A stretch of 64,000 nucleotides of DNA from Ignavibacteria bacterium (GTDB lineage Bacteria; Bacteroidota; Ignavibacteria; Kapaibacteriales; Kapaibacteriaceae), in contig CANMBE010000011.1 of NCBI GenBank assembly GCA_947495975.1, forward strand, positions 1-64,000. The letters run 5' to 3'. The translations under genes and the position numbers were made by a program. Under the pieces are notes generated by a model, which saw only the letters and a program-made list of their open reading frames with translations, ran no database searches and was not told the origin of the DNA. Positions 15,999 to 59,133 of the stretch are shown piece after piece; within the stretch, counting starts at the first letter, position 1; each line of letters opens with the position of its first letter.

Positions 15999-17591
15999 TC
16001 ACACGGCATGAACCAACAGGCGCACTTTTCGCCCGAACGTTTCTTCCATAAGCTCCTTGCGCCGCTCAGAGCCCCATAACTCAATATCCGGTACCATGGT
16101 TGGAGCTACAAGGTAGATGTCGAGGGCACTTGCCGAAACGTTTACACGTACAGTTTGCACCACCTGTTGCTGACGGCGGTCTAGTCCTTCCCCAATCCTG
16201 AGGATGGAAGAGAGTACCTGAACAAGACGCTGCTCGTCTGCGCTGAGCGCAAAAAACGCTAGGTGTTTTTTCTTTGGGTGGCTCTTACGATGATACCGCG
16301 CAACATTTGCGATGAGCTCTGCTTCGTCATTTGTAAAGCCGGGCATTGCGCTGTTGCGAATAATATATTCGCTGTGTTTATGATGCTGATCTGCTGCAAT
16401 GTGATATCCAACGTCGTGCAATAATGCGGCTGCTTCTAAAAGTTCACGCTCTCTATCGCCAAATCCATGGAGGCTGTGAAGATCATCAAACAGACGCAAA
16501 CAAAGATTCTTTACGTGCTCTGCATGACGCCTACGAACGCGGTAGAGATCGCAGAGGTGATCAACACTTTGATAACGTAGATGCGATAGATGATGATACT
16601 CATCGATGTCTTTTTGTTTTTGCACGGTATCAAAAACAATACCTTCGCGAAGTGCATATCCCGAAATTGTAAGCTCTTGAATATTGAGCCCTAGTATCGC
16701 TTGTTCCAAGATCAGCGCGCCACCTGTAATAACGTCAGCACGCTTTGAATCCATTCCTGGCAATGCGAGTCGCTCATCAAGTGTCTTGGCTTGAACAATT
16801 GAGTTTACTACGTCGATGATGTCCTTGCGATCGAGACGCATGGCATTCAATGATTCGGGAGGACGTTTTCCCTTGCGAGCTATGGTCATGGCAGCGATTG
16901 CAAGTACTGTTCCAGAACACCCTACTGCATGTTCAAAACCATAGGCAATGAGTGATTGAAACACGGTGGCCCATTCTCCACGTATTGCATTTCTGCAGGC
17001 TTCAATTTGTTGATCCGTAATGGTTGGGTTTGGAAAGAATCTCTTCGTCATGCGGATATGACCAAGCTTAGAAGAATCAACAAACGCCGCTTCACCTTGA
17101 TATCCAATCACGGTTTCTGTTGAGCCCCCTCCAATATCAATGACGAATGTGCGCTTTGCAAGAATTGGTAGTGCATGGAGTGCACCCAGGTAGATGAGTC
17201 TACCTTCCTCTACACCTGGGATTACTTCGATTTCAATTCCAGTATCGTTCAAAGCGCGCAGAACAAATTCATCCTTGTTCAATGCTTCTCGTACAGCGCT
17301 TGTTGCAACTGCACGCACGTGTGCACCGTGCTGATGAGCCTCGAAAGCAAATCGCTTCAGTGTGGCCACACCACGATCGATAGCCTCGGGAGTGAGTCTC
17401 TTCATGTCACCTGCCGATGATCCAAGACGCACCATTTCCTTGTTACGAGCATGAATACGCAATACTCCTCGCGTGCCAACGCTAGCCACCACCATGTGGA
17501 ATGAATTTGTTCCTACATCGATGGCCGCAATGAGAATTGGCTCAGGTGACTCTACTTCCACAATCAGATCCTCCGTATTCAAAGATACCAT
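15999..17591 (-). CDS. ppx: Ppx/GppA phosphatase with C-terminal HD domain
   Basis: Exopolyphosphatase / guanosine pentaphosphatase family; links polyphosphate and (p)ppGpp pools. The 530 residues comprise an ASKHA-fold phosphatase domain from about 20 to 320 (AAIDVGTNSFHMVV, ATSAVREALN, FVIDIGGGSTETVIG) and an HD-type domain from about 345 (LLEAAALLHDVGYHI, then H-x-K-HSEYII). Length and architecture fit Ppx of the longer type. The ATG at 17591 lies only 14 bases from a divergent small ORF at 17606. Exact substrate preference cannot be read from sequence. Confidence 0.9.
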   Translation of the reverse strand: MVSLNTEDLIVEVESPEPILIAAIDVGTNSFHMVVASVGTRGVLRIHARNKEMVRLGSSAGDMKRLTPEAIDRGVATLKRFAFEAHQHGAHVRAVATSAVREALNKDEFVLRALNDTGIEIEVIPGVEEGRLIYLGALHALPILAKRTFVIDIGGGSTETVIGYQGEAAFVDSSKLGHIRMTKRFFPNPTITDQQIEACRNAIRGEWATVFQSLIAYGFEHAVGCSGTVLAIAAMTIARKGKRPPESLNAMRLDRKDIIDVVNSIVQAKTLDERLALPGMDSKRADVITGGALILEQAILGLNIQELTISGYALREGIVFDTVQKQKDIDEYHHLSHLRYQSVDHLCDLYRVRRRHAEHVKNLCLRLFDDLHSLHGFGDRERELLEAAALLHDVGYHIAADQHHKHSEYIIRNSAMPGFTNDEAELIANVARYHRKSHPKKKHLAFFALSADEQRLVQVLSSILRIGEGLDRRQQQVVQTVRVNVSASALDIYLVAPTMVPDIELWGSERRKELMEETFGRKVRLLVHAV

Positions 17592-18930: not shown

Positions 18931-21900
18931 TTAGTGCGACACAGTTACCGGTAAGGTGATAGTGCCACGTTGACCAGTGATTGTCAGGTAATAAATGCCC
19001 GAGGCAAGGTCAGCAGTAACGAGTCTAAACTCATAGGTGCCGGCATTCTGACGTGCGTTCACGAGGAACGTAGAGGACATTGAGCCTGTTGCATCGGATA
19101 CGCGTACGCTCACTACATCATCATGAGCAAGCTCATAACGTACAGTTGCAGCATCCTGCGTAGGATTTGGGAAGATGCGGCCAGAGATGGCCACCGTTGA
19201 AAACATGTCTTCGTTCACGCTGTTTGGTCCTTGCGCAGCATATGCACGATTTACTGGATCGTACTCTGTCCACTCAAGGTCCCAACGCTCCATACCAACA
19301 GCACCGCGGAAGTTCACGCGCTCAAAGAACGGATCAGACGCTGTGCCACTGAAAGCCGCACCTGTGAGTGCAGGTGAGCCTGCCTTTAGCGCAGGATTAA
19401 AGTCTACCGATGTTGTGAAAGGGGCTTCTCCCATCGCACCGTTCGGCGATGACTTATCAACTACGTTGCCAAAGGCTGCCTTTGCAATCCACGTTGCGTC
19501 AAATCCAGGAGGAGCTACTTGTCCACCAGTTAGACCAGCAACAGTCATTGTTGAACCCTTGATACCATACCACGAGTTGTTACGTACTTCAAGCGTATCG
19601 CCCAGCGCAGCAACCATTGTAGGGAGTTGTGCGATTTCTAATCCGCGCGTCCAACCAAGGAATAGAGAGTTGTGAATGCTGAGACGGGAGTTGCGACGAA
19701 TCTGTGCAGCTGCACCAAAGCGCGAGTTGTATTGGTTTGCGCCACCACCTGATGTCCACGATGTGTCTTGTAGCGGACCAATTGCCGTTACGTTGGAGAA
19801 CACGCCAGTGGTAAGTGGTTGATTGAATGAGGCATTTGCATCGTTGTCAGATTCGAATGTTTCTGATGTAGATACATCGGCCGCTGTGCGGAAACGTTGT
19901 GCAATACCAAACTGCACTTTGCCACTGTATCCGTTGTCTGTGTCGAAGTCATCATCGAGGATGCCAGTCGATACAAGATACTTCGCATTCACTGTTCCGC
20001 CGAACCACTCAAAGCCGTCGTCGTTACCGTACGATACTTGGATGTGATCCAGTTTTGTCTTTCTTCCAACGCCACCCATTGTGAGTGAGTTAAGCTCGTT
20101 GTTTGGAGCAACAGCGATACCTGCAAATTCAATACGCACGTAGCTCAGTGAACCGCTTGAGTCTTCGTCATCAGTTCCACCAAACCAACCGCGACCACCC
20201 GTTGTTGTCTCGGCAATGCCACCTTCAATAGCTGCTTGACCGCCAGGATGATTGGTGCGCGCCTTACCACAGATCACAACACCACCCCAGTCACCACGAG
20301 CGCGTTGACCCGGAAGTGCACTTGATGTAAATACAACGGGCAGCTTACGTGTACCCTTTGCGATAAGCTTACCACCCTTGTTAACGCAGAGGACAGAGTT
20401 CTGACCCACCGTGTCGCCAAGAATGATCGTTCCAGGCTCAATCTCAAGAACACCACCATCATTGATAAAGACATAGCCATCAAGACCGTATACCTTTGTG
20501 TTCGAAAGATGAACGCGTCTGCTGATTTCACCGCGAATGGTAGAATCAACTGTCACTGGAGCAGGAGCGATGATGTTCAGTGGTTGATCGTTGACGTCTG
20601 TTCTTGTTGTGTCGCTGAGAAGAACCATACGTACATAGCCAGAAGCCGTTTGATCGGCCGGACGGAAAACGATACCACCTGCAACTTGACCGCGGCGAGT
20701 AGCCGAATCAAGAACGTTGGAAAGTCCAGGAAGTGTTGTCCAGGGGCCATTTTGTGTCTTACCAAAATCGAAACGCCAGCGCTGACGGAATGTACCTGCT
20801 GTATCCCACGTAACTGACACAGATTGACCCACGCGTATATCACGGACGTTTGTGCCTGGCTCGATAAGACGAACCGATGGCACAACAACCACGGGTGCTG
20901 TTACTGCAAACGGGAAGTTTGATACATCAAATTGTGATGGGTTGCTCACGAGTGTCATCTTTATGTAACCAGTGCTGGTCACAACGTTTGGTGCAGTGAA
21001 GCCATTTACGAGAATACCACGTGTAGAACCCGCATCAACAACAGACTCAGCACCTGCGATTGGCGACCATGGGCCGGTTGCTGACGTACCAAATTCGAAC
21101 TTATAGATATTGCCGGCTGCGCTCGTTACATCCCACTCGATATTCGTCTTTACTCCTTGTAGGTATGTTTCACCAGCGGCCGCGCCTGGCTTTGTGAGGC
21201 GGACAAGAACTACGGCACGGTACTCAGCATTTACTGGATCGTAATTTGTCCAACCTGCGTCCCAACGGCTGTCCGCTGCAAACGCGCCACGATAATCTAC
21301 ACGTGTAAAGAATGAGTCATCGATTGGATAAAGACTGCCGCCATTTGTGTACGATGCTGTGTTCAGATACGTAGCAACAATCATCGGACGTGGGTCAAAC
21401 GAGGCATCGTTTGACCATGGGTTCGTGATGAAGGCATTGTATGGATTTGACTTGTCTGCACTGTTGTTAAATGCAGCATTGCTTATCCAGTTTGCATCCA
21501 TACCAACTGGTGCTGTACCGCCTGCGAGGTTAAGCCATGTACCTTTCAATCCAAACCAGTTGTTTGACCGCACAGCGAGTGAGTCTGTGAACGCGGCAGC
21601 CATTGTTGGCGCCTGTGCAATCTCAATACCGCGTGGCCAACCAATGAACACCGAGTTAAAGATGCTCTCGCGTGAGTTACGGCGGATCTGCGCCGCTGCA
21701 CCGTAGCGCGAGCTGTATTGATTTACACCACTACCAGTTACCATCGATGTGTCTTGGATAGGACCAATAACTGTGATGTTGGAGAAAACTGCAGATGTGA
21801 GGGGGCGGTTGAATGAAGCAAGTGCATCATTGTCTGACTCAAAAGCTTGCGACGTTGACACGTCAGCAACGGTGCGGAAACGCTTAACAAGGCCAAACTG

Positions 21901-22944
21901 CACCTTGCCACTGAAGCCGTTGTCTGTATCAAAATCGTCGTCTAGTGTACCATACGCAACAAGGTGCTTGGCATTAACCGTGCCGCCAAACCATTCAAAT
22001 GCATCATCATTGCCGTATGAACACTGAATGTTATCGAGCACAGTTCTGCGACCAACTCCACCCATTGTGAGAGAGTTCAATTCGTTGTTTGGAGCAACAG
22101 CAATACCTGCAAATTCAATTCGCACATACATCAGCGATCCGCTTGAATCATCATCATCGCTGCCACCAAACCAACCACGACCGCCAGTTGTTGTTTCAGC
22201 GATACCACCTTCAATTGCAGCCTGACCACCAGGATGATTTGTGCGTGCATTTCCACAGATTACAATTCCACCCCAGTCACCACGAGCGCGTAGGCCTGGT
22301 GCTGCAGAGCTTGTAAATACGATCGGCTGATTTCTGGTTCCATTCGCGATCAGCTTGCCACCCTTGTTTACGCAGATCACTGAATTCTGACCTACTGTGT
22401 CACCAACAATGATGGTACCGGCTTGTACTACCAACACACCGCCATTATTTACAAAGACGTATCCATCAATGCCGTAGATCTTGGTGTTGCTCAAGTAGAC
22501 CCGGCCGGTGATCTCGCCTCGGATAACCGAGTCTGGCTTTACTACTTGCGGAGACTCAATCGAAAATGGGTTGTCTGTAATATCAAACACGTTGTTCGAG
22601 TCAGAGATAAGCTCCATGCGAACGTATCCAGACGATGTACCTGCTGCAGGGACACGCCATCCACCAGACGTTGGAACTGACTGACCCCGTGTAGTTGCAG
22701 AATCTAGAACGTTTGCTGTTTGACCAACAAAGGTTGTCCACGGACCAGCAGGTGAAACGCCATACTTAAAGCGCCAACGTGCACGGAACGTACCCGCTGT
22801 GTCCCAACGCATATCCTGTGTAGATCCTGGACGGAAGGATTCTCCTCCGTTTGGAAACGTAATTCTGCATGATGACGGATTTTGTGCCATCATCTGAGTG
22901 GCCGAAACCACCAGAATAAAAGCAAGAAGACGAAGTGTCCTCAT
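18931..22944 (-). CDS. T9SS-exported beta-helix protein with internal duplication
   Basis: Secreted or surface protein of 1337 residues; role unknown. It has a signal peptide (1-20). Next comes an Ig-like module starting ITFPNGGESFRPGS (Kre9/KNH-like wording), then a beta-helix-like module (about 138-470) with GYVFVNNGGVLVVQAGTIIV, RGDWGGIVICGNA and DDDFDTDNGF. A second Ig-like module (~620), a third (~690-790) and a second near-identical beta-helix module (about 799-1131) follow. The C-terminus (RIFPNPTQDAATVRYELA.. SGIYYLTI) is a T9SS type A sorting domain. The family resembles Bacteroidota proteins often misnamed multidrug transporter (recall, not search). It starts 48 bases after a TonB-dependent receptor gene, a pairing that suggests shared function such as ligand capture at the surface. 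Confidence 0.75.
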   Translation of the reverse strand: MRTLRLLAFILVVSATQMMAQNPSSCRITFPNGGESFRPGSTQDMRWDTAGTFRARWRFKYGVSPAGPWTTFVGQTANVLDSATTRGQSVPTSGGWRVPAAGTSSGYVRMELISDSNNVFDITDNPFSIESPQVVKPDSVIRGEITGRVYLSNTKIYGIDGYVFVNNGGVLVVQAGTIIVGDTVGQNSVICVNKGGKLIANGTRNQPIVFTSSAAPGLRARGDWGGIVICGNARTNHPGGQAAIEGGIAETTTGGRGWFGGSDDDDSSGSLMYVRIEFAGIAVAPNNELNSLTMGGVGRRTVLDNIQCSYGNDDAFEWFGGTVNAKHLVAYGTLDDDFDTDNGFSGKVQFGLVKRFRTVADVSTSQAFESDNDALASFNRPLTSAVFSNITVIGPIQDTSMVTGSGVNQYSSRYGAAAQIRRNSRESIFNSVFIGWPRGIEIAQAPTMAAAFTDSLAVRSNNWFGLKGTWLNLAGGTAPVGMDANWISNAAFNNSADKSNPYNAFITNPWSNDASFDPRPMIVATYLNTASYTNGGSLYPIDDSFFTRVDYRGAFAADSRWDAGWTNYDPVNAEYRAVVLVRLTKPGAAAGETYLQGVKTNIEWDVTSAAGNIYKFEFGTSATGPWSPIAGAESVVDAGSTRGILVNGFTAPNVVTSTGYIKMTLVSNPSQFDVSNFPFAVTAPVVVVPSVRLIEPGTNVRDIRVGQSVSVTWDTAGTFRQRWRFDFGKTQNGPWTTLPGLSNVLDSATRRGQVAGGIVFRPADQTASGYVRMVLLSDTTRTDVNDQPLNIIAPAPVTVDSTIRGEISRRVHLSNTKVYGLDGYVFINDGGVLEIEPGTIILGDTVGQNSVLCVNKGGKLIAKGTRKLPVVFTSSALPGQRARGDWGGVVICGKARTNHPGGQAAIEGGIAETTTGGRGWFGGTDDEDSSGSLSYVRIEFAGIAVAPNNELNSLTMGGVGRKTKLDHIQVSYGNDDGFEWFGGTVNAKYLVSTGILDDDFDTDNGYSGKVQFGIAQRFRTAADVSTSETFESDNDANASFNQPLTTGVFSNVTAIGPLQDTSWTSGGGANQYNSRFGAAAQIRRNSRLSIHNSLFLGWTRGLEIAQLPTMVAALGDTLEVRNNSWYGIKGSTMTVAGLTGGQVAPPGFDATWIAKAAFGNVVDKSSPNGAMGEAPFTTSVDFNPALKAGSPALTGAAFSGTASDPFFERVNFRGAVGMERWDLEWTEYDPVNRAYAAQGPNSVNEDMFSTVAISGRIFPNPTQDAATVRYELAHDDVVSVRVSDATGSMSSTFLVNARQNAGTYEFRLVTADLASGIYYLTITGQRGTITLPVTVSH
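19552..20550 (-). repeat. Intragenic repeat, copy 2 of beta-helix module
   Basis: Second copy of a ~333-codon module; it is offset from copy 1 (21535-22533) by exactly 1983 bases (661 codons). Long stretches are identical in protein (for example RTNHPGGQAAIEGGIAETTT) and most are clearly alignable in DNA, so the duplication is fairly recent or kept similar by conversion. Confidence 0.85.
21535..22533 (-). repeat. Intragenic repeat, copy 1 of beta-helix module
   Basis: First copy, residues about 138-470 of the 1337-residue protein; see 19552-20550 for its partner. The differences between the copies are mostly conservative (GYVFVNNGG versus GYVFINDGG), so both halves appear under selection. 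Confidence 0.85.
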
Positions 22945-22992
22945 GAGTGACCTCTGTTGTGATGACTGAATATGAGATAGTTCATTTATTTA

Positions 22993-25818
22993 TTACTGGA
23001 ATCGATAGCTAACACCAAACGTGTACGTAGTGCCACGAAGGTTTGATTGGATATTTACGCCACCTTGCTCCCAGTACAATGGTTGGTTGAGCAGGTCGCG
23101 AATCGCAAACTTCATCTCAAGGCTATTTCCTAGCGTTTGAGACAATGAAAGGTCTATCATTTGTCTCGGCATTTCATACACGTGCGGATCTTCGAATTGA
23201 TAGGCACCGCGTTGGCCAACTTTGATAATGCGACGACCATAGGTGTTATATGCTACGTTGATCGTAGAGCCAGTTGTAAAGTTGGTGTAGAAAAGACCAA
23301 CATTAATTGTGTACGGGCTCTGACCCCACATCGTGCGCTCATCGGTAACGCCACCTTGGTTCACTACAATGTTCGAGTTGATCACTGCTGCATTCAATGA
23401 GAATGTAAATGGGGTTAACACAGGAGTAATAAATCCAAGTTGCTTGCGCACTTCGAGTTCAACACCGTAGTTCTGCGCTAGACCGTTGGCATTCTGAAAG
23501 CTGTAGATCACTTCAGACGTTGAAGGAAGAATAGTCTCTTCAATCGCATTCTTGAATGACTTAAAGAATGCACTTACACTGAGCACTTCACCTGGGTTTA
23601 GAAACATTTCCCAACGCAGATCATAGTTCTGAATAAGAGCGATGGTAAGATTCGGATTGCCTGTAGTAACGGCTTGAATCTGGAAGTTGTAGAATGAGAA
23701 GGGGGCAAACTCACGCAATGAAGGACGTGCGAGTGTCTGCGTTGCGCCAATACGGAAGTTCATGTTGTCAGTTGGACTAAGCACGAAGTTGATCGATGGC
23801 AACACGTTGGCCATGTCAACAGTTGGACTTACTGCCTGATCCTGCGAGTCAAAAGAGTTCAACTGTTGAAAGCTGCTTTCAATACGAGCGCCGCCAATAA
23901 AGCGAACCTTCAGATCGCCAACATTAAATGGAACGTCGGCCATGAGGTAGCCAGCTGCGATTCGTTCCGATGCGATGTATTGATCTGACCGACGCGTCTC
24001 TTCAGACATCAATAGTCTATTTGCAGAGAAATTTGAATCTGCAAAGGTTGCCAAAGGATTCACTCTCCCCGTTTCGCTCGTCAGAAAGAGTGGGTCAATC
24101 TCGCCTTGATAATTGCGAGAGAGTACCATTGTGAAAGACCGAGCGCTGAAGTCACGGTTCCGGAATTCATAGAGTCCACCGAACTTGATCTTCGCTGACT
24201 CTACAGGAATCATGATGTTCGTTGACGCAATCCGATAATATTCAGACATCTCTGAATAGAAGCGCCCTGCCGTTGTTCCGTCACCCGTAGGCGACTGTGA
24301 AAAGTTTATTGCAAGCGGTGCACCGGTATCGGTGGATTGGCGAGAATACTGAAGACGGCGAAAATCAGGTTCGTTGCGCTGTGTCTCGGAATAGCCAAGT
24401 TTCCAATCAACAACCGTGTTGTTGAAGAATCCAAGCGTGTGCTCACCACCAAGTTGTGAGGAGAGCAGTTCTTTCTGGACATAGTTGAAGCCAAATTCCC
24501 GGCGGGTCTGTCCCTGCGCAAAGTTTTCGCCGGCGAGTTCGAGCGATTCATCATCCATGGAACGATTGTACACGTTCTTCAATGAGAACACGCTACTCTC
24601 ACCTACCCTATATGCCATATTGAAGAGGCCACCAAGGTTAACACTGCGCGCAGCAGTGAAACCCACCTTGTCAAATCCAAGTGATCTGTCTGACTGAATG
24701 CCCGCACGTTTCATGCGATTCATTGAATAGCCATTGCTATAGTTGGCATTGGCTACTATTCCAAATGCATCCTTTTCGCCAATTTCAAAAGGGGCACTGA
24801 GCGTTACGCCAAGACCGCCATTCGTTAGAGCAGTCTCATAGAGAGTGTTCCAATTTGAATTTGGGAATGCAGACCCAACCTCGGAAACTCTAGCAACTGC
24901 GTTCGGATCGCCCGATATTGCCTTGCTGTTGAGACTAAGAAACTCTTGACGGTTGGCAGGAATGCTGGATGATATTCCGCGCTGATCTGCACCACTAGCT
25001 GCCCAATCACTTGACGAGCCAGAGTATGACAAGAAGTCTCCCTGGTGAAACGTAACATAGTCGTTGATAGACTGCGAGCCGCTGAACTTTACACTGAAGG
25101 CAGATGGGAAGTCGATAGTGTTTAACTGTACAAGACCACCAGAGAAGTTCCCTGGGAGATCCGGAGTAAACGACTTTGTAACGTTCGCGTTCTCTAGCAG
25201 TTCCGCAGGAAACATGTCAAACGCAAAAGCTTTCTTGTCTGGTTCTGTTGACGATAGAGCAGCCCCATTCAATGTTGTGTTGCTGTAACGCTCGCTTACG
25301 CCACGAACGTATACATACTTGCCTTCAACAAGGGTAACACCGGAGACGCGCTTCAGAGACTGACCAGCATCGCTATCAGGTAGCTTTGAGATCTCTTCAC
25401 GGCCAATACCGTCGCTTACCTGCGCTGCGTTTTTTCTCTGCACAAGCAAAGCTGCTGCGTTATCATTAACACGTGCGGCTTCAACGACAACTTCTTTGTT
25501 TGCTTTCTTCGATGCACCAAGAACAATGCTAACGTTTGTTGGAGCATCAGCAAGAACAGCGATGCCTTCAATAATCTTCGCTTCGTATCCGATGTATGTA
25601 ACGCGCAGCTTATACGTGCCTGCCGCAAGTTTCTTGATACGGAACGTTCCTTTTGTATCAGAGTATGCACCATTCTTTGCATCCACAACACCAATGCTGG
25701 CACCGCGGAGTACCTCACCTGTCTCGGCATCCGTAACTTTGCCTTCGATAGATCCATTTTGTGCAGCGGCAGTCATCAAACTCGCGCAAAGCAGGATCAC
25801 TGTAACGATACATTTCAT
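22993..25818 (-). CDS. TonB-dependent outer-membrane receptor
   Basis: Energy-coupled importer of the outer membrane; the substrate is unknown. The 941 residues have a signal peptide (1-19), a carboxypeptidase-regulatory-like domain (about 23-100: GSIEGKVTDAETGEVLRGAS..TYIGYEAKII), a plug domain (about 110-260; KLPDSDAGQSLKRVSGVTL, YVYVRGVSERYSNTTLNG), and a 22-strand-type barrel ending TYTFGVSYRFQ. The plug wording resembles the receptor group often annotated with Pfam Plug plus outer-membrane beta-barrel protein. aaggg lies before the ATG. It leads the two-gene unit with the beta-helix T9SS protein. No SusD-like partner is present, so a SusCD glycan system is unlikely. Confidence 0.9.
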   Translation of the reverse strand: MKCIVTVILLCASLMTAAAQNGSIEGKVTDAETGEVLRGASIGVVDAKNGAYSDTKGTFRIKKLAAGTYKLRVTYIGYEAKIIEGIAVLADAPTNVSIVLGASKKANKEVVVEAARVNDNAAALLVQRKNAAQVSDGIGREEISKLPDSDAGQSLKRVSGVTLVEGKYVYVRGVSERYSNTTLNGAALSSTEPDKKAFAFDMFPAELLENANVTKSFTPDLPGNFSGGLVQLNTIDFPSAFSVKFSGSQSINDYVTFHQGDFLSYSGSSSDWAASGADQRGISSSIPANRQEFLSLNSKAISGDPNAVARVSEVGSAFPNSNWNTLYETALTNGGLGVTLSAPFEIGEKDAFGIVANANYSNGYSMNRMKRAGIQSDRSLGFDKVGFTAARSVNLGGLFNMAYRVGESSVFSLKNVYNRSMDDESLELAGENFAQGQTRREFGFNYVQKELLSSQLGGEHTLGFFNNTVVDWKLGYSETQRNEPDFRRLQYSRQSTDTGAPLAINFSQSPTGDGTTAGRFYSEMSEYYRIASTNIMIPVESAKIKFGGLYEFRNRDFSARSFTMVLSRNYQGEIDPLFLTSETGRVNPLATFADSNFSANRLLMSEETRRSDQYIASERIAAGYLMADVPFNVGDLKVRFIGGARIESSFQQLNSFDSQDQAVSPTVDMANVLPSINFVLSPTDNMNFRIGATQTLARPSLREFAPFSFYNFQIQAVTTGNPNLTIALIQNYDLRWEMFLNPGEVLSVSAFFKSFKNAIEETILPSTSEVIYSFQNANGLAQNYGVELEVRKQLGFITPVLTPFTFSLNAAVINSNIVVNQGGVTDERTMWGQSPYTINVGLFYTNFTTGSTINVAYNTYGRRIIKVGQRGAYQFEDPHVYEMPRQMIDLSLSQTLGNSLEMKFAIRDLLNQPLYWEQGGVNIQSNLRGTTYTFGVSYRFQ

Positions 25819-25908
25819 AGAGTTTCCCTTATCACTTGCGACATGAACAGAACGAACGTTTACGAAATTATTGGTACCCTGTTAGGTGTATGTTACCTGC
25901 ACGTTACG

Positions 25909-26952
25909 ATGGCGTTACAATTGGCCGGTTCTTACGGCTCTCGTGTTACCAACAGGAAACATTGGGTTATTGCCGTAGCAATGATCTTGGCCACATCAAC
26001 GATCTGGTCTCAGCAAACAGTTCAGAAAGTGATGATAGGGAGCATACGCAGCGATTCTTCGGATCACCTTCTCTCTCAGTACAAGGTTGAAGCTGCGCTA
26101 GCATTAGCACTTGAAATCACGGGCAGATATTCGCTCGTGCAGAACACCACTCGCGATTCAGTTGTTGCAACGATGAAGAGGGATTCGATTTCTGTGCAGA
26201 TGGCTGCAGATCGTCTTGGCGCTGAACTCATTGCATTTTGTTCTATCGCGCGGGTTGCAAATCTCATACGTATGGAAGTTGTGATTGTAGGTGGTGAAGG
26301 GTGGGTAATCAATACGACGGGTGTGGGATTTGCCCTATCCTTTTTGGTATCCGATAGCTCACAGCAGAGAATTGTTGATCCAGCAATTCTAACGGCAACT
26401 CAGAGGGCACTGAGCGTGGCACTGCTTGATTCAGCTATGTATGTATCTGCCGACTCAGGATTACAGGCCCGTCCCACGCAGCTCACTGCTCTAGGTGGTA
26501 TGGAGTTTGTCATGGGCGAAGATGGATTAGCCCCGTGGTCAGTATTCAAAGAGAAGATTGCTGCATCGTATGACGCAGTCGCAACGGTAGTTGCTGCAAT
26601 GCGTCAGCATCCTAGCGTAACTGTAGTTGACGTAGAAAGTCGCGACAGTCTTTATGCTGCAGCTGGACTCTACATGGTTGAAAACTACAACGCACTGTCT
26701 GGTATAGAGCTCAAGACTCTTAGGGGGTTTGACGTAACACACGTCATTACAGGCCGCTTCGTTCGCATACGAGGAGGAGCAGAAATCACACTGTCATTGA
26801 ATGAGATAAAGCCGGATGCTTCCTATACGTCTATACGAACTGCATCGTCAACTGTGAGCGTGGATGCGAAGCTTGCGTTTCAGGACGGCATTCGATCATG
26901 TCTTCGTCAGATGTTCGGTGCGATTACCGAACCAGTACAACAGACTCGCTAA
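25909..26952 (+). CDS. Secreted protein, TolB-N/CsgG-like fold suspected
   Basis: The 347 residues carry a signal peptide ending near TIWSQQ (residues ~18-37). Two segments resemble the TolB N-terminal/CsgG-type pattern: LALEITGRYSLVQNTTRDSV followed by AADRLGAELIAFCSIARV and VEVVIVGGEGW-like strands, and a repeat of the theme near 240-290 (HVITGRFVRIRGGAEITLSL). Such proteins assemble in the periplasm or under the outer membrane. I chose the ATG at 25909 because it gives a proper signal peptide; in-frame ATGs at 25843 and 25759 overlap the divergent receptor's leader or gene. Its end overlaps the convergent T9SS gene by 29 bases. Function unknown. Confidence 0.6.
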   Translation: MALQLAGSYGSRVTNRKHWVIAVAMILATSTIWSQQTVQKVMIGSIRSDSSDHLLSQYKVEAALALALEITGRYSLVQNTTRDSVVATMKRDSISVQMAADRLGAELIAFCSIARVANLIRMEVVIVGGEGWVINTTGVGFALSFLVSDSSQQRIVDPAILTATQRALSVALLDSAMYVSADSGLQARPTQLTALGGMEFVMGEDGLAPWSVFKEKIAASYDAVATVVAAMRQHPSVTVVDVESRDSLYAAAGLYMVENYNALSGIELKTLRGFDVTHVITGRFVRIRGGAEITLSLNEIKPDASYTSIRTASSTVSVDAKLAFQDGIRSCLRQMFGAITEPVQQTR

Positions 26953-29900
26953 GACTTCCGTTTGAAGCCGACGAAATATGGAGGCGGTAAACTCCGGATG
27001 GAAGATCCGCAAGCGAGAGGCGAACAACAGAAGCCCCTTCATCAATGTGAAGGCTTCCGAAAGTCTTCACTGCGCTTCCGATGCTGTTATACATCTCCAC
27101 GCTTGCCACGTCTGTTCGCTTCGCATCGGTAGCGATAGACAACACGTCTCTCGTTGGGACTGGAGGCAAAAGTCGGAAACGAGTTTGTTGACCGAGTTGA
27201 ATAAGGAAACGCGGTCCGCATGCGTCAACTATGAGGGATCCGTCATCAACCACCACGTTTACTGCCTCTCGGGCCCAAATAACTGTACGAGAGAAATCCA
27301 ATCCAGTACTATCGGGCAGTGATGAATACGCTGTACCATGGAGGGTTGCGATAACACCAACATATCCGCATTCAGGTCCACGGGATGAAACCATGAGGCG
27401 AATGGAATCCTGATCTAACGTCCACCGAACGTTTGCATCCATCATTGTTCCAACTGAAACGGAATCTACGTTTAGGGCAAGTCTGCTAAAGTTGATATAG
27501 GTTGAGAGGCTGTCAATCTGAGCATCGCTCACATCAGAATCCCAATACACAGGAATCGCTATGCGAGAATTGGGCCCCACAGTGTAATCGTTGATGCGCA
27601 GACCAAGTACGAATGTTGGCGGCACGCGTGGGTCTTGTGCTCTCCCTCTGATATCGATCTCAGAACTGGTTGTGCATTTGTTGCCATCTACAAGTACAAG
27701 CCGAGCATCATGAATTCCCGTAGCAACAGGAGCATACTCTATTGTAACCGAGGCAACACCGCCTGCAACAAGTATTTGACCGTCTACGGGGGGTACAATG
27801 CGCCATGGTAGTGAAGGGGGCTCAATGCGAAGCTGAACGATGCTACGAGAAATGAGACCCGGGTTGCTTATCGTCACTGTACCTGTAGAGACCTGACCCG
27901 GCTGCAGGATACCCTGATCTAGAGGGTTTGGTGTTAGCACTAGTCTGTCATCAGGTGCGAGCGCAACACGCACGTTAACGGAATCACGAGACCCACACAC
28001 ACGATCTGTAAAATATACCTTTGTTTGAGTGCTGCCTGCGGCAAGAAGTGCAGGATCAACTTCGATAGTTACTCGCACGCTATCACCTGCCGGCACCGAT
28101 ACTTGACGTTCCATGATTCGAATTCCACGTGGTGCACCACTCAAGGCGATATCAATTTCTGCTCCAAGCTTACCACTGTTATTGATCTCAACAGTGCTTA
28201 CGATTTCTGGCACACATGCTTCGACGGTTCCAAAGTCAACTGATGAAGGTCTGACCAAAATCTGAGGAGCGCTTAACTGGCCTTCTAAAGGCACGGAGAA
28301 TGAACCGCCTACTGCATCAGTTACCACATCGAGTGTGGCCCTGGTTAGCCCCGTAGTAAGAGGCTCATACTCTACCACTATCCACTGGCGAGTATCACGC
28401 AACATTTGCACTGGTGTTGTTGGCCGTATCACTCGGAGAGGAACTCCTGCTTCTCGTATTGTTGCGCTTTGCAGCGTAACGGCTCTGCCACCTCTTACAT
28501 CGATGTATACACTATCGAGCTGTTTGGATGGTGCGCATTGTTGTCTCCATGAGAGCTGCGATGGTCCATAATTATAATCAGTAGTCATGGCCTTCAAGCG
28601 AACGTTTGCCGAAGCCATCGTTGAACACGTGGTGAATGCTTCAACTTCGAGGGCGCCAATGTATTCAATAGGAACAGCAGACATCCAGGTGAATGTCACG
28701 ATTGCACTATCTCCCTTTCTTAGCAAGAATGGGAAAGTTGGAATGTTCGTGATCATAGCAGATGGCAACGGAGACATGCGGATTGCACGAATGGTTGCAC
28801 TATCTGCAGCCATCAATCTGATGACAAACCTCTTTTGGATAGCTACATTTACATCAACAGAGTCTATAATAGAACTTGGCGTAATTGTAAGGGATAGGTC
28901 TTCAACAAGTCCACGGACAATTACATACTCGGTTGTATCACACGGTGAAACGCGAACAAAAACGGTATCGTTGACTGGACCATTTTTTCTTGCCGTATAG
29001 GTAAAGCGAACTTGGCGAGGCTGGTTTCCCAGTATCGTGATATTGCCCGCAGTAAGTCCACTGATCTGTGAAGACGTTGTAGAGAGAGACGCTGAGGCTG
29101 TTGTGTTCCCATCATTCTTCAGCGAAATCGTGCGCTCAACAAGATCACCAGTACACATCGAACCGAGATCAATAATGCGAGGGGTGATGGTAATCACCGG
29201 TCTCATTGAAACGCCACGAAGCCCAATCTGCCAAGGAGTTTTCGATCCACGGGCAAGGGTCAAGTCGTCGTTGTCAATCACGAGCGTAACGTTATCATTT
29301 CCCGTTTGAGAACGATACTCCAAGAGCACAGTGTCAGCTTCTTTTGGAAGCAGCGTCCATGGGGCTCCAAAGCGGCCGCTCACAAAACCAAGAACGATGA
29401 ATGCCTGAGGTCCAAAGTTGTTTGCCACCATTGATCGAATGATCAAAGGCGCATTTCCAGAATTCGATATCGGTATGCGAAGAGTATCGAGCGCTCTGCA
29501 TTTCCCATCTACCGTTGCGTTAACGACGCTATGAAAGATTGGGGAAATGCCATAGACTCTGACTGTAATAAACGTATCTCTTGTACAAGGTCCGAATCTC
29601 ACTCGGAATTTTGCTTGGATCCATCCAGTGTCTCGAACATTTGCTGTGATGTATGTGAGCGTCACTCCTGATCGAACAACCGCCGGAGTTACCGCGGTCA
29701 TGTTAATCGAAGCGTCGCCACTAACACGCGTAATGTTTACGATCGATTCAAAGAAGACAGTAGAAGAAGACATCCACGGCATCGTTCGGTCAACAGGTGT
29801 TCCAACACGCGTTGTGTAAGTGAGCAGCGTGTCAACGGGGTAAGCAGAGCGTTCTCTTCTGGTACCCTGCAGGTTCACTACCAAGGTTGTTTCTGGCTGT

Positions 29901-31156
29901 TCTATGCGAATCAAAAGTGTTGCGTTGTGAACTCCTGCAGCAAGGGGCTTGTACTCAATGATAACCGGCTGAGGCGTGCATGATGCGATGTTGGTTGAGA
30001 GCGGCGCATTCACAACTCGGAAGTTTGCCGCATCTGGTCCAGTAATAGTTGCTGTCCAAGGCGATGCAAACCAATTGACGTTCCGAACTGTGACAGTGTC
30101 ACGTCTGGCGGAGTCTGGGCACACATCGATGAATCTCAACAGACTATCACTCTGAGTTCGAAGCGCCGCGGCTGTTCGAAAAAGACCATCGCCAACAACC
30201 CAACCCGTTGTGCTATTCAAGAATAAAATGTCGTCCGTGTTGGCCCCCTCCAAACCACAATTGCGAAGCTGCCAAGACAGTCCAGCATTCGTGGTGGCGT
30301 ACACAGAGGCATTCCAGCCGGATGCCCATCCTGTTGTGGCATCCAGAAGAAAGGAGCCAAACATTTGCTCACCAGTATCAAACTCGCGCCACGTTTGTCC
30401 AAGATCGGGGCTAAACCGTATGCCTTCTGTCAAACCCGGAGCCGTATTGCATTTCGTACCACCAGCCGGAACACAGATTGCGTTACCAGACATAGCAAGC
30501 TCTTCGTGCCACGGCGAGGATGCTCCCGTATATGCTAATACTTGCCAGTTGACGCCATCTGTTTGCGACCGCCATACTGTACCAGAACCAATGGCGTACA
30601 ACGTGTTGGCTGGCATCGTGGCATCCCAATATGGATCAGCGAGTGCGGATTGCTTTTCATTCGTATCTACGAACATCTGGAATGTAGTGCCGCCATCCAT
30701 TGTCTTGAAGAACGCATTGTATCCGCAGCCACCGCCAGTGAACCACCCTTCCTGTGCATTACGGAAGTGCCCACCCCACACGAACGGTGAATTTGCGGGC
30801 TTGATATCCCGCCAGGTGATACCACCATCAACAGACTTATACATTCCACATGGTCCAGAGCAATATCCAACCAATGGATCGAGAAACTGGATGTATTCTA
30901 GGTGGCACGCAGCTTTTGCTGCATCAATCTTGACGCCTTGCCACGTCTGTCCGCCGTCAACCGTCCGAATAACGTATCCACCGCGTTGGTCACAGGCCCA
31001 ACCAAGATTGAGGTTGGACGGAAGGAAGAAGATATCAAGGTAATATCCCGAATCGTAGGGAGCCGGAATTTTTGCCTTTTCCCACCTCTGTGCGGTACTG
31101 GGTACCGTGCATAGTGCAGAAAAGATCAGCATAACGATGGTGACTGCTGTTCTCAT
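26924..31156 (-). CDS. Very large T9SS-exported protein with BNR/Ycf48-like and anchor-D-like domains
   Basis: 1410 residues from the ATG at 31156 (signal peptide MRTAVTIVMLIFSALCTVPS..AQ); an upstream ATG at 31192 would spoil the signal. The N-terminal ~320 residues hold BNR/Ycf48-like propeller repeats (VIRTVDGGQTWQGV, MYKSVDGGITWRDI, FFKTMDGGTTFQMF). From about 340 to 1180 there is a chain of roughly 100-residue Ig-like units of the choice-of-anchor-D / ASPM-SPD-2-Hydin sort (IDLGSMCTGDLVERTISLKN, VDFGTVEACVPEIVSTVEIN). The end is a T9SS sorting-like domain (SVEMYNSIGSAVKTFG..SGVYRLHISS). Many Cys pairs suggest an extracellular protein. Probably an adhesin-like or structural surface protein; function unknown. 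Confidence 0.75.
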   Translation of the reverse strand: MRTAVTIVMLIFSALCTVPSTAQRWEKAKIPAPYDSGYYLDIFFLPSNLNLGWACDQRGGYVIRTVDGGQTWQGVKIDAAKAACHLEYIQFLDPLVGYCSGPCGMYKSVDGGITWRDIKPANSPFVWGGHFRNAQEGWFTGGGCGYNAFFKTMDGGTTFQMFVDTNEKQSALADPYWDATMPANTLYAIGSGTVWRSQTDGVNWQVLAYTGASSPWHEELAMSGNAICVPAGGTKCNTAPGLTEGIRFSPDLGQTWREFDTGEQMFGSFLLDATTGWASGWNASVYATTNAGLSWQLRNCGLEGANTDDILFLNSTTGWVVGDGLFRTAAALRTQSDSLLRFIDVCPDSARRDTVTVRNVNWFASPWTATITGPDAANFRVVNAPLSTNIASCTPQPVIIEYKPLAAGVHNATLLIRIEQPETTLVVNLQGTRRERSAYPVDTLLTYTTRVGTPVDRTMPWMSSSTVFFESIVNITRVSGDASINMTAVTPAVVRSGVTLTYITANVRDTGWIQAKFRVRFGPCTRDTFITVRVYGISPIFHSVVNATVDGKCRALDTLRIPISNSGNAPLIIRSMVANNFGPQAFIVLGFVSGRFGAPWTLLPKEADTVLLEYRSQTGNDNVTLVIDNDDLTLARGSKTPWQIGLRGVSMRPVITITPRIIDLGSMCTGDLVERTISLKNDGNTTASASLSTTSSQISGLTAGNITILGNQPRQVRFTYTARKNGPVNDTVFVRVSPCDTTEYVIVRGLVEDLSLTITPSSIIDSVDVNVAIQKRFVIRLMAADSATIRAIRMSPLPSAMITNIPTFPFLLRKGDSAIVTFTWMSAVPIEYIGALEVEAFTTCSTMASANVRLKAMTTDYNYGPSQLSWRQQCAPSKQLDSVYIDVRGGRAVTLQSATIREAGVPLRVIRPTTPVQMLRDTRQWIVVEYEPLTTGLTRATLDVVTDAVGGSFSVPLEGQLSAPQILVRPSSVDFGTVEACVPEIVSTVEINNSGKLGAEIDIALSGAPRGIRIMERQVSVPAGDSVRVTIEVDPALLAAGSTQTKVYFTDRVCGSRDSVNVRVALAPDDRLVLTPNPLDQGILQPGQVSTGTVTISNPGLISRSIVQLRIEPPSLPWRIVPPVDGQILVAGGVASVTIEYAPVATGIHDARLVLVDGNKCTTSSEIDIRGRAQDPRVPPTFVLGLRINDYTVGPNSRIAIPVYWDSDVSDAQIDSLSTYINFSRLALNVDSVSVGTMMDANVRWTLDQDSIRLMVSSRGPECGYVGVIATLHGTAYSSLPDSTGLDFSRTVIWAREAVNVVVDDGSLIVDACGPRFLIQLGQQTRFRLLPPVPTRDVLSIATDAKRTDVASVEMYNSIGSAVKTFGSLHIDEGASVVRLSLADLPSGVYRLHISSASNGSLSESVVLVR

Positions 31157-31226
31157 GTGTACGAGTCTAGACAACTTAACATTATCTAGCATTTACAGCA
31201 TTTACGACAAAAATCGCCCTTTAGCC

Positions 31227-57945: not shown

Positions 57946-58461
57946 ATGAATAAGATCTTGCGCCTCGCTCTGCTTTCACTCCTGCTGTTTACATTCTCTT
58001 CCGTCCACGCCAATGAAAAGGCCGTGGGTAAGAGTGCCATGGAGTTTACTCTCGAAGATCAGTTCAGCCAGAAGTGGTCATGGTCTAATCATTGGAAGGG
58101 TAAGCCTACAATACTTGTGATGAGTGATTGGAAAGGCAGCGACTATGCAAATAGATGGACGGCACCACTTGTAGCACGTTTTAAAGATCGTGTGCAATAT
58201 GTTGCCCTTGCCGATGTATCGCTTGCCCCAAGCTTTCTCAAAGGGTACTTGCGCGACCGGTTTAAGGGTGTCTACCAACATAGTGTTCTCTTAGACTGGG
58301 ATGGTGACGTGTTTACGCATTATGTTGCACAGCCCGGTCTTGCGAACGTACTCTACATAGACTCATCGGGGATCGTCCGCCTACACACATGGGGGCAAGG
58401 GGCTCAGGATCACGTTGAAAAATTCGCAAACGCACTTGACCTTTTGTTAACTGCACCGTAA
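57946..58461 (+). CDS. Exported thioredoxin-like protein without the CXXC
   Basis: 171 residues from the ATG at 57946, with a signal peptide (MNKILRLALLSLLLFTFSSVHA). The mature part reads like a thioredoxin/redoxin domain (EFTLEDQFSQKWSWSNHWKGKPTI..VLYIDSSGIVRLHTWG), but where the redox CXXC is normally found it has VMSDWKGSDYANRW, with no Cys. Thus it is likely not an oxidoreductase; perhaps a carrier or binding domain. Nothing else identifies it. It may follow the aldolase in the same transcript, 19 bases after its stop. Confidence 0.65.
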   Translation: MNKILRLALLSLLLFTFSSVHANEKAVGKSAMEFTLEDQFSQKWSWSNHWKGKPTILVMSDWKGSDYANRWTAPLVARFKDRVQYVALADVSLAPSFLKGYLRDRFKGVYQHSVLLDWDGDVFTHYVAQPGLANVLYIDSSGIVRLHTWGQGAQDHVEKFANALDLLLTAP

Positions 58462-58476
58462 CCACGTGGTCTGCTC

Positions 58477-59133
58477 ATGCCAGTACTTGTTGATAAATCC
58501 GCAAAACGTCTAGAAATTGTGCGCAGTGCAGCGGATGTATTTGCTCGTACCGGATATCACGAAACCAAGATGCAGGATATTGCCACTGCTGCCGATATTG
58601 GCAAGGGTACGATCTATGAATATTTCCGCACAAAAGAGCAGCTCTTTCTTGCTGTTTATGACGTGTGGATGAGCGACTACGAAGCATTGATTCAACAACG
58701 TGTAGATGCATCACCCGATGCAATGAGTAAGGTTGATGCAATCCGCGATAGTGCGGTTGAGTTTTATGAGTCTCGCGCTGAGCAGGCACCCCTTCTCTTA
58801 GAGTTTTGGGCTCATTCGCTACGAACAGATAATCCGGCATTTCTTGAACGCATTACACGCACGCGTACGTTCTTGCACAATCTGGGGATCAAGCTAACGC
58901 GTGAATTAGTTGATGCAGGCTGGTTCACAGAAGTAGATGCCAAGGCGTTCGCAGATCTAGAAGCGGGTATAAGCGACGGTATTTTTCTTGCATGGGTGCT
59001 CGAAGGCAGATCGTTTTCGCTCCACAAGGCATTTACGTTCCGCCAGAGTGTTATCGGCCTTGGGCTTCTATCGCCAGACGCCAGAGCGCTGCTTCATGAG
59101 AAGTTGGGTCGCAAACTAAAACGCGGGCTATAA
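58477..59133 (+). CDS. TetR/AcrR-family regulator
   Basis: The 218 residues have a typical N-terminal helix-turn-helix: ADVFARTGYHETKMQDIATA, ADIGKGTIYEYFRTKEQLFL (~17-57), in which the last helix sits on DNA. The C-terminal ligand domain (~70-200) is not recognised. It follows the thioredoxin-like gene by 15 bases and is followed convergently by the acyltransferase. No nearby operator palindrome is obvious. The target is unknown; local genes are candidates. Confidence 0.85.
   Translation: MPVLVDKSAKRLEIVRSAADVFARTGYHETKMQDIATAADIGKGTIYEYFRTKEQLFLAVYDVWMSDYEALIQQRVDASPDAMSKVDAIRDSAVEFYESRAEQAPLLLEFWAHSLRTDNPAFLERITRTRTFLHNLGIKLTRELVDAGWFTEVDAKAFADLEAGISDGIFLAWVLEGRSFSLHKAFTFRQSVIGLGLLSPDARALLHEKLGRKLKRGL

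Follow-up and report, generated by a model that had tools for sequence, protein, structure and literature searches.

A TonB-dependent receptor paired with a T9SS-tailed, module-duplicated beta-helix protein of the ElpS/FI-FII type, a gene pair with predicted Pho regulation in an Ignavibacteria bacterium

Background

ElpS (Cc0170) of Caulobacter crescentus is a lipoprotein of about 50 kDa that is made on phosphate starvation, is exposed on the cell surface, is released with the help of type II secretion, and is encoded next to a TonB receptor (Cc0171) and type II secretion system (T2SS) genes (PMC2996285). According to the same paper, the receptor gene is expressed constitutively, and deletion of elpS left phosphatase activity unchanged. 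In Flavobacterium johnsoniae, two pairs of a TonB receptor and a lipoprotein, Fjoh_0545/0546 and Fjoh_3857/3856, are strongly induced by Pi depletion, and FI, which accounts for 18.7% of the exoproteome, is the most abundant exoprotein of Pi-starved cells (PMC8115612). FI, FII and FIII of F. johnsoniae, all lipoproteins, share 31-36% identity with the Caulobacter protein over 50-54% of their length, are accompanied by TonB-dependent receptors (PUSIII, PUSIV) and have been likened to polygalacturonase; FII lies in the phoBR cluster and is itself induced by Pi depletion (PMC8115612). Strains that lack Fjoh_0546 or Fjoh_3856 showed unaffected colony expansion (PMC7807042). The parts of PMC8115612 covered here mention neither multi-module or T9SS-tailed forms nor a promoter box. 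No earlier report of the gene pair together with the TAAC box described below was found in the open-licence PMC literature in the parts covered, including PMC11208175, PMC12872454 and PMC4796936.

The gene pair analyzed here belongs to this known, biochemically unexplained kind, a surface protein of the ElpS/FI-FII type with a TonB receptor, and appears from its sequence to be a T9SS-anchored, module-duplicated variant that is predicted to be Pho-regulated. It differs from ElpS in having a T9SS tail, Ig-like repeats and two modules, in having the receptor gene first, and in having no adjoining T2SS genes. It also resembles the SusCD and PusCD systems, in which a TonB receptor has a surface partner that would hand over the ligand, but its partner is a beta-helix protein instead of SusD and its receptor is TIGR01782-like.

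The two-gene locus

The gene pair is located in a stretch of 64,000 nucleotides (contig CANMBE010000011.1), which as a whole is referred to as the window. The main features of the locus and of the receptor are as follows.

25881..25917, minus strand: predicted Pho box, four TAAC words with 11-bp spacing, 63-99 nt upstream of the receptor start (pattern scan)
22993..25818, minus strand: TonB-dependent receptor, 941 aa, first gene of the two-gene unit (ORF and domain matches)
25483..25749, minus strand: CarbopepD_reg_2 N-terminal domain, receptor residues 24-112 (Pfam)
25162..25431, minus strand: Plug domain, receptor residues 130-219 (Pfam)
22945..22992, minus strand: gap of 48 bases between the receptor gene and the beta-helix gene (ORF coordinates)
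18931..22944, minus strand: ElpS-type beta-helix protein, 1337 aa, T9SS cargo (ORF, TIGR04183, homologues and structure model)

The ORF coordinates confirmed the first-pass annotation of this DNA, which had described a receptor gene and a beta-helix gene read in the same direction 48 bases apart. Because the downstream neighbor is convergent and the upstream neighbor is divergent, the two genes read as a two-gene unit. Pfam searches of 12 flanking genes, a part of the genes in the window, found no SusD-family partner of the kind expected for a SusCD-type complex, in agreement with the earlier statement that no SusD is present.

The receptor consists of a carboxypeptidase-regulatory domain (CarbopepD_reg_2), a Plug domain and a TonB barrel, and its likeness to TIGR01782 (256 of 310 bits) is below the cut-off. 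The genome contains 18 plug-domain matches, so this receptor is one of many. A profile comparison with solved receptors placed SusC homologues, a TonB-linked receptor and the colicin I receptor nearest to it.

The divergent ORF (25759-26952, plus strand) had no family match at the cut-off. Its first-TTG start would put the predicted Pho box inside its coding region, and its true start may be further in. A gene of the Ppx/GppA exopolyphosphatase family (15999-17591, minus strand), followed by a DegP/HtrA-type protease, is separated from the pair by the convergent gene. The gene at 26924-31192 on the minus strand encodes a protein of 1422 aa whose N-terminal part is YCF48-like and which also has choice-of-anchor D repeats and a weak T9SS tail.

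Domain organization, duplication and predicted surface anchor of the beta-helix protein

The domain order in the 1337-aa protein is Ig-like repeat 1, module 1, Ig-like repeats 2 and 3, module 2, and the T9SS tail.

22534..22866, minus strand: Ig-like repeat 1, residues 27-137 (repeat comparison)
21190..22530, minus strand: beta-helix module 1, residues 139-585 (self-alignment)
21907..22008, minus strand: acidic ladder of module 1, DDAFEWFG and DDDFDTDNGFSG, residues 313-346 (motif conservation)
20878..21201, minus strand: Ig-like repeat 2, residues 582-689 (repeat comparison)
20545..20874, minus strand: Ig-like repeat 3, residues 691-800 (repeat comparison)
19240..20544, minus strand: beta-helix module 2, residues 801-1235, high-confidence model (self-alignment and structure model)
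19921..20022, minus strand: acidic ladder of module 2, DDGFEWFG and DDDFDTDNGYSG, residues 975-1008 (motif conservation)
18955..19176, minus strand: T9SS type A sorting domain, residues 1257-1330 (TIGR04183)

The internal duplication noted in the first-pass annotation was found again, with an offset of 662 residues in place of the 661 given there: 285 of 675 residues were identical at a shift of 662, versus 65 of 676 at a shift of 661. A module length of about 333 residues had also been given; the bounds used here yield 447 and 435 residues, with a most similar core of about 340. The local alignment of the two modules contained 357 identical residues out of 528. Within residues 141-477, 261 of 337 residues were identical to the other module, and 136 of these 261 were specified by different codons, which suggests that the duplication is old and has been maintained by selection. 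The three Ig-like modules of the earlier description were borne out as mutually related repeats, with pairwise scores of 165-228 versus maxima of 50-57 in 200 shuffles each.

The module number of the homologues varied: of 155 beta-helix ORFs, which include a few fragments, 118 had one module, 28 had two, seven had three and two had four. A tree of the modules from the window and 15 loci pointed to repeated duplication or homogenization. Five loci (L039, L040, L041, L043 and L047) each clustered their own modules together, module 1 of the window grouped with module 1 of a congener (support 0.945), and module 2 grouped with the second modules of two congeners (0.996).

The T9SS tail matched TIGR04183 with 31.1 bits (cut-off 23) and SprA was found above its cut-off in the genome, as expected for a T9SS cargo protein, and no lipobox that would indicate a lipoprotein anchor was seen at the N-terminus. 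Among 61 beta-helix ORFs from 60 Bacteroidota loci (L037-L096), in which lipoboxes were called by a simple pattern, 37 had a C-terminal extension of 85-110 residues and no lipobox, 15 had a lipobox and no extension, one had both, seven had neither, and one had a longer extension. These counts suggest that lineages differ in how they bring the same module to the surface, some using the T9SS and others making it as a lipoprotein.

Structure model and acidic ladder

Structure prediction of the module, a check that the first-pass annotation had proposed, yielded a model of a right-handed beta-helix. The model covers residues 693-1337. Over model residues 101-545 the block means of pLDDT range from 73 to 99 and mostly exceed 88, and the Ig repeat (model residues 1-98) falls outside the modelled part. 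Foldseek returned no match for the model at E 0.001, searches of PDB sequences with the protein and with a 75-row profile returned none, and the module matched no Pfam family at its cut-off. VIA-align gave Z-scores of 22.4 to NosD and to a tailspike, 22.0 to AlgE4 and 20.7 to Pel9A, and the 50 matches listed had Z-scores of 18.7-22.4 at 6-14% identity. Since many right-handed beta-helices, such as lyases, tailspikes and NosD, align equally well, the fold is generic, and it was rejected as proof of an enzyme.

In module 2, D975, D976 and E979 are 22 residues apart from D997, D998 and D1001. This distance is approximately one coil by strand spacing, and in the model the two sets of acidic residues should stack on each other. 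Both acidic motifs were kept in 71 of the 75 modules of the 60 Bacteroidota loci, which were not picked by the motif. The four modules without both motifs (in L086, L093, L094 and L095) all come from loci without the receptor; one further locus without a receptor in the stretch, L062, has the acidic motifs nevertheless. Because the losses are confined to receptor-less loci, the acidic site appears from these alignments mostly to accompany the receptor. In a second set of sequences (alignment A4), 73 of the 75 rows come from loci L113-L192, which were found with patterns containing the acidic motif, so conservation of the acids in that alignment is partly a result of selection, and the unbiased count is the 71 of 75 given above. 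At positions of about 9000-10500 in L093, L094 and L095, the receptor-less relatives start with the W-rich stretch that ends the module elsewhere, as if they were permuted or the remnant of a lost module.

The catalytic sets of GH28 enzymes and of pectate lyases consist of conserved residues that include basic ones. The 63 module positions conserved at a level of at least 85% include no His, no Lys and one Arg, and a comparison at the level of motifs found no catalytic signature in common with right-handed beta-helix lyases, epimerases, tailspikes or NosD, which share this common fold. With neither His nor Lys at the most conserved positions, binding through metal ions seems likelier than known lyase or phosphatase chemistry, and we infer that the acidic ladder fits metal-assisted binding better than a phosphatase.

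Conservation of the gene pair

A search for the beta-helix protein in 247 genomes of the phylum gave matches in 161 genomes at E 1e-15, and its output shows two candidates scored in nearly every genome. From these, 60 Bacteroidota loci of 14.6-20 kb were selected manually in 59 genomes, mainly those at the head of the 161-genome list, and 40 stretches from 40 of the same 59 genomes served as controls. In 52 of the 60 hand-picked loci a homologous receptor was located directly upstream on the same strand with a gap of at most 300 nt. A receptor of at least 150 bits was present anywhere in the stretch in 55 of 60 loci versus none of the 40 controls, which contained neither the receptor nor the beta-helix gene. 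The receptor is divergent at 212 nt from the beta-helix gene in L065 and lies at 723 and 745 nt, in the opposite gene order, in L067 and L068; in five loci (L062, L086, L093, L094 and L095) no receptor was found in the stretch.

The analysis was extended to 80 named loci, which by their titles belong to Alpha- and Gammaproteobacteria, Poribacteria, Acidobacteria, Bacteroidota and others. Here the pair was on one strand within 300 nt in 63 loci, 38 with the receptor first and 25 with the beta-helix gene first. In the other 17 loci the receptor was farther off (11 loci) or absent from the stretch (six loci), some of the contigs being short. The Marinobacter plasmid copy (L099) showed no receptor match in its stretch. 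The first-pass annotation had held that the functional pairing would fail if homologues were rarely next to this receptor class; adjacency was the rule in both samples, and the prediction of a functional pair from sequence is well supported.

With regard to the described systems, the modules of the window matched those of L097 with 146 bits and those of L103 with 236 bits, and GspD, GspE and GspF genes lie beside both; the relation to Cc0170, Fjoh_0546 and Fjoh_3856 is drawn from PMC8115612, PMC2996285 and gene order. The clusters of Sphingomonas and Indioceanicola follow the cc0170-cc0171-T2SS layout described for Caulobacter (PMC2996285): the beta-helix gene comes first, then the receptor gene, a T2SS 'protein N' gene, gspD, gspE and so forth. 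An adjacent TonB-dependent receptor, typical of the ElpS/FI-FII type, is a feature common to these loci, to the window and to most of the Bacteroidota loci.

Predicted Pho boxes in the same genome and family

The exact triple of TAAC words with 11-bp spacing occurs at only two places in the 2.18-Mb genome, before the receptor gene and at C1:36804-36829, where it directly precedes genes for a porin (PF07396), pstS, pstC, pstA, pstB and phoU. The receptor gene therefore has its predicted box in common with the pst-phoU operon of the same genome, as expected for a member of the Pho regulon.

The exact triple was found in eight of 23 genomes of the family, including this one, in 15 rows that represent 12 distinct sites. 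All 12 sites adjoin a homologue either of the receptor (six sites, of which the receptor match in G251 is weak, at 105 bits) or of the porin that heads the pst-phoU operon (six sites); the stretches at these sites are too short to show the second gene of the unit. The reversed pattern matched 13 times in the same 23 genomes versus the 15 rows, so the number of matches is unremarkable and the signal is in the position of the sites. Likewise, a scan of this genome with one mismatch allowed gave five matches versus 21 for the reversed control and was uninformative.

Of the six porin sites, three are reversed and face the neighboring gene in a shared region, so they could serve that gene, which is presumably a phosphofructokinase gene. 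One-mismatch sites are also present at C13 and, within the window, at 58437-58462 on the plus strand, just before a gene (58477-59133) that we take to encode a TetR-type regulator. The best PhoB-like regulator in the genome scored 224.5 bits, below the cut-off of 296.2 bits.

Predicted Pho boxes and phosphate genes in other genomes

The 300 nt upstream of 55 homologous receptors in the phylum were compared with those of 806 other ORFs from the same loci. At least 10 of the 12 box positions matched at 42 of 55 receptors versus 32 of 806 other ORFs (Fisher p about 2e-39, with relatedness ignored), and at least 11 of 12 matched at 24 of 55 versus 13 of 806. At the level of 10 matches, periods of 7-16 other than 11 gave 0-6 of 55, and seven other words gave 1-9 of 55. 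PstC in L060 is one of the 32 other ORFs with a box, and boxes with 10-12 matches precede PstS in L051, L063 and L156 and also a porin in L156; only seven of 77 pst/pho gene matches near the pair, many of them internal to operons, had at least 10 box matches (three of 37 in L037-L096). In ten Bacteroidales loci (L101, L166, L174, L176, L177, L178, L180, L181, L185 and L190) the score was 7-8 in eight loci and 10 in two. TTTAACA is the most conserved sequence reported for the PhoP regulator of Riemerella anatipestifer (PMC9603813). The core of the TAAC box is close to this sequence.

The classical PhoB box is CTGTCATN4CTGTCAT. At least 11 of its 14 positions matched before the beta-helix gene in 13 of 28 proteobacterial loci versus four of 408 other ORFs; the 28 loci were listed by hand and left out L099, L134, L145, L147, L149, L158 and L163, among others, and L098 and L150 share one site. 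Stricter thresholds gave three of 28 versus two of 408 (at least 12) and one versus two (at least 13). Taken alone, five plasmid loci had weak PhoB-box scores (control fractions 0.017 to 0.96).

Phosphate genes were also found near the pair. A Pst/PhoU gene (80 bits) or a PhoB-like gene (125 bits) was in the stretch in 11 of the 60 Bacteroidota loci versus one of 40 controls (Fisher p 0.025), and in 18 of the 80 named loci; a part of the PhoB-like matches could represent other regulators of the OmpR type. Alteromonas macleodii has phoB, phoR and genes for a phosphate-binding protein and a 2OG oxygenase, followed by the beta-helix gene, the receptor gene, DUF3450, ExbB, ExbB, ExbD and TonB, and by similarity Salinimonas (L142) has a like layout.

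Proposed function and alternative explanations

The first-pass annotation had left the ligand of the pair unknown. Shared Pho boxes, gene context and the published induction of relatives (PMC2996285, PMC8115612) narrow the ligand class to phosphorus acquisition, with the cargo itself still putative. Comparison of sequences shows the pairing, the shared Pho boxes, the context and the conservation of the acidic site, and we consider it likely that the pair is a phosphate-starvation unit of the outer membrane, in which a Pho-induced surface beta-helix protein would bind a phosphorus substrate and the receptor would import it. At low phosphate, a PhoB-type regulator would bind the 11-bp-spaced box before the receptor gene, and both genes would be induced together with the porin-pst-phoU operon elsewhere in the genome. 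The 1337-aa protein, which carries the sorting tail in a genome with SprA, would be exported by the T9SS and fixed on the surface, where a groove that is acidic and probably loaded with metal may allow its two modules to bind a phosphorus-containing substrate and hand it to the receptor for import with TonB energy. The suggestion of the first-pass annotation that the surface protein captures something for the receptor is kept in this proposal. The pair would work like ElpS/Cc0171 of Caulobacter and FII/Fjoh_0545 of Flavobacterium, with the T9SS tail replacing the lipid anchor and the module doubled. Points against this proposal are the constitutive expression of the Caulobacter receptor gene and the unchanged phosphatase activity of the elpS deletion (PMC2996285), box counts that do not exceed those of the reversed pattern, the orientation of three porin sites, the small share of pst/pho genes with a box, the low scores in eight of ten Bacteroidales loci, the five loci without a receptor in the stretch, and the overlap of the box with the divergent ORF if that ORF begins at its first TTG.

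It is possible, if on the unlikely side, that the beta-helix protein is an enzyme, a hydrolase or lyase acting at the surface on phosphorylated polymers (cell-wall glycans, teichoic acid or nucleic acid), and that the receptor imports the cleavage products. Its fold matches lyases, epimerases and polygalacturonases at Z-scores of about 19-22, Lidbury et al. modelled FI-type proteins on polygalacturonase (PMC8115612), and the conserved Asp and Glu residues could be catalytic. However, tailspikes, NosD, an adhesin and an autotransporter reach equally high Z-scores, and no activity can be read from the fold; the composition of the 63 most conserved positions is also unlike the catalytic sets of GH28 enzymes and pectate lyases. 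The lack of a Pfam match at the cut-off and of a PDB sequence match also argues against an enzyme, as do ElpS preparations, which had no phosphatase activity (PMC2996285). The last observation has another side: overexpressed ElpS raised extracellular alkaline phosphatase activity, itself having none (PMC2996285), as would be expected if the beta-helix protein activated or displayed secreted phosphatases while the receptor imported something else or sensed a signal. This explanation appears improbable, because the receptor is a constant partner and because the effect on phosphatase was reported in PMC2996285 on overexpression only.

Uptake of iron, carbohydrate or vitamins is typical of many TonB receptors, and the solved receptors nearest to that of the window would allow such a cargo, the link to Pho genes then being incidental. 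We regard this as very improbable in view of the two different Pho-box sequences that precede the same pair in two phyla, the places of all exact box sites in the family, and the F. johnsoniae low-Pi loci, which are tightly repressed under N and Fe limitation (PMC8115612). Iron and carbohydrate were set aside as cargo because of the Pho boxes and the published induction.

Within the reading as a phosphate-starvation unit, a bolder version is speculative and rather unlikely as a whole: the pair might scavenge phosphate in a siderophore-like manner, metal ions on the acidic ladder gripping phosphate or phosphorylated ligands that the receptor imports whole. Phosphorus would then have a general route across the outer membrane that is shared between phyla, with export as a lipoprotein (T2SS genes being nearby in some) or by the T9SS, and with capacity tuned by one to four modules.

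How phosphorus compounds other than free phosphate pass the outer membrane is, in our judgement, largely open. Novel TonB-linked uptake is spoken of in PMC8115612, and the occurrence of the pair in several phyla, preceded by one or the other of two Pho boxes, makes it a strong candidate for such uptake of phosphorus. The question is directly testable through the box, the acidic site and the F. johnsoniae deletions of Fjoh_0546 or Fjoh_3856 that already exist (PMC7807042).

Other gene arrangements around the pair

In Aquimarina (L143 and L161), two receptor-beta-helix pairs follow each other in tandem within one locus. In L128, L130, L132, L145 and L147, ExbB/ExbD-like and mostly also TonB-like genes lie between the beta-helix gene and the receptor gene in the same direction. 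In addition, a DUF3450-ExbB-ExbB-ExbD-TonB set, which in L150 is cut by the end of the stretch, was found beside the pair in the gammaproteobacterial loci L098, L100, L142, L150, L153 and L162, and is possibly a dedicated energy source for the receptor.
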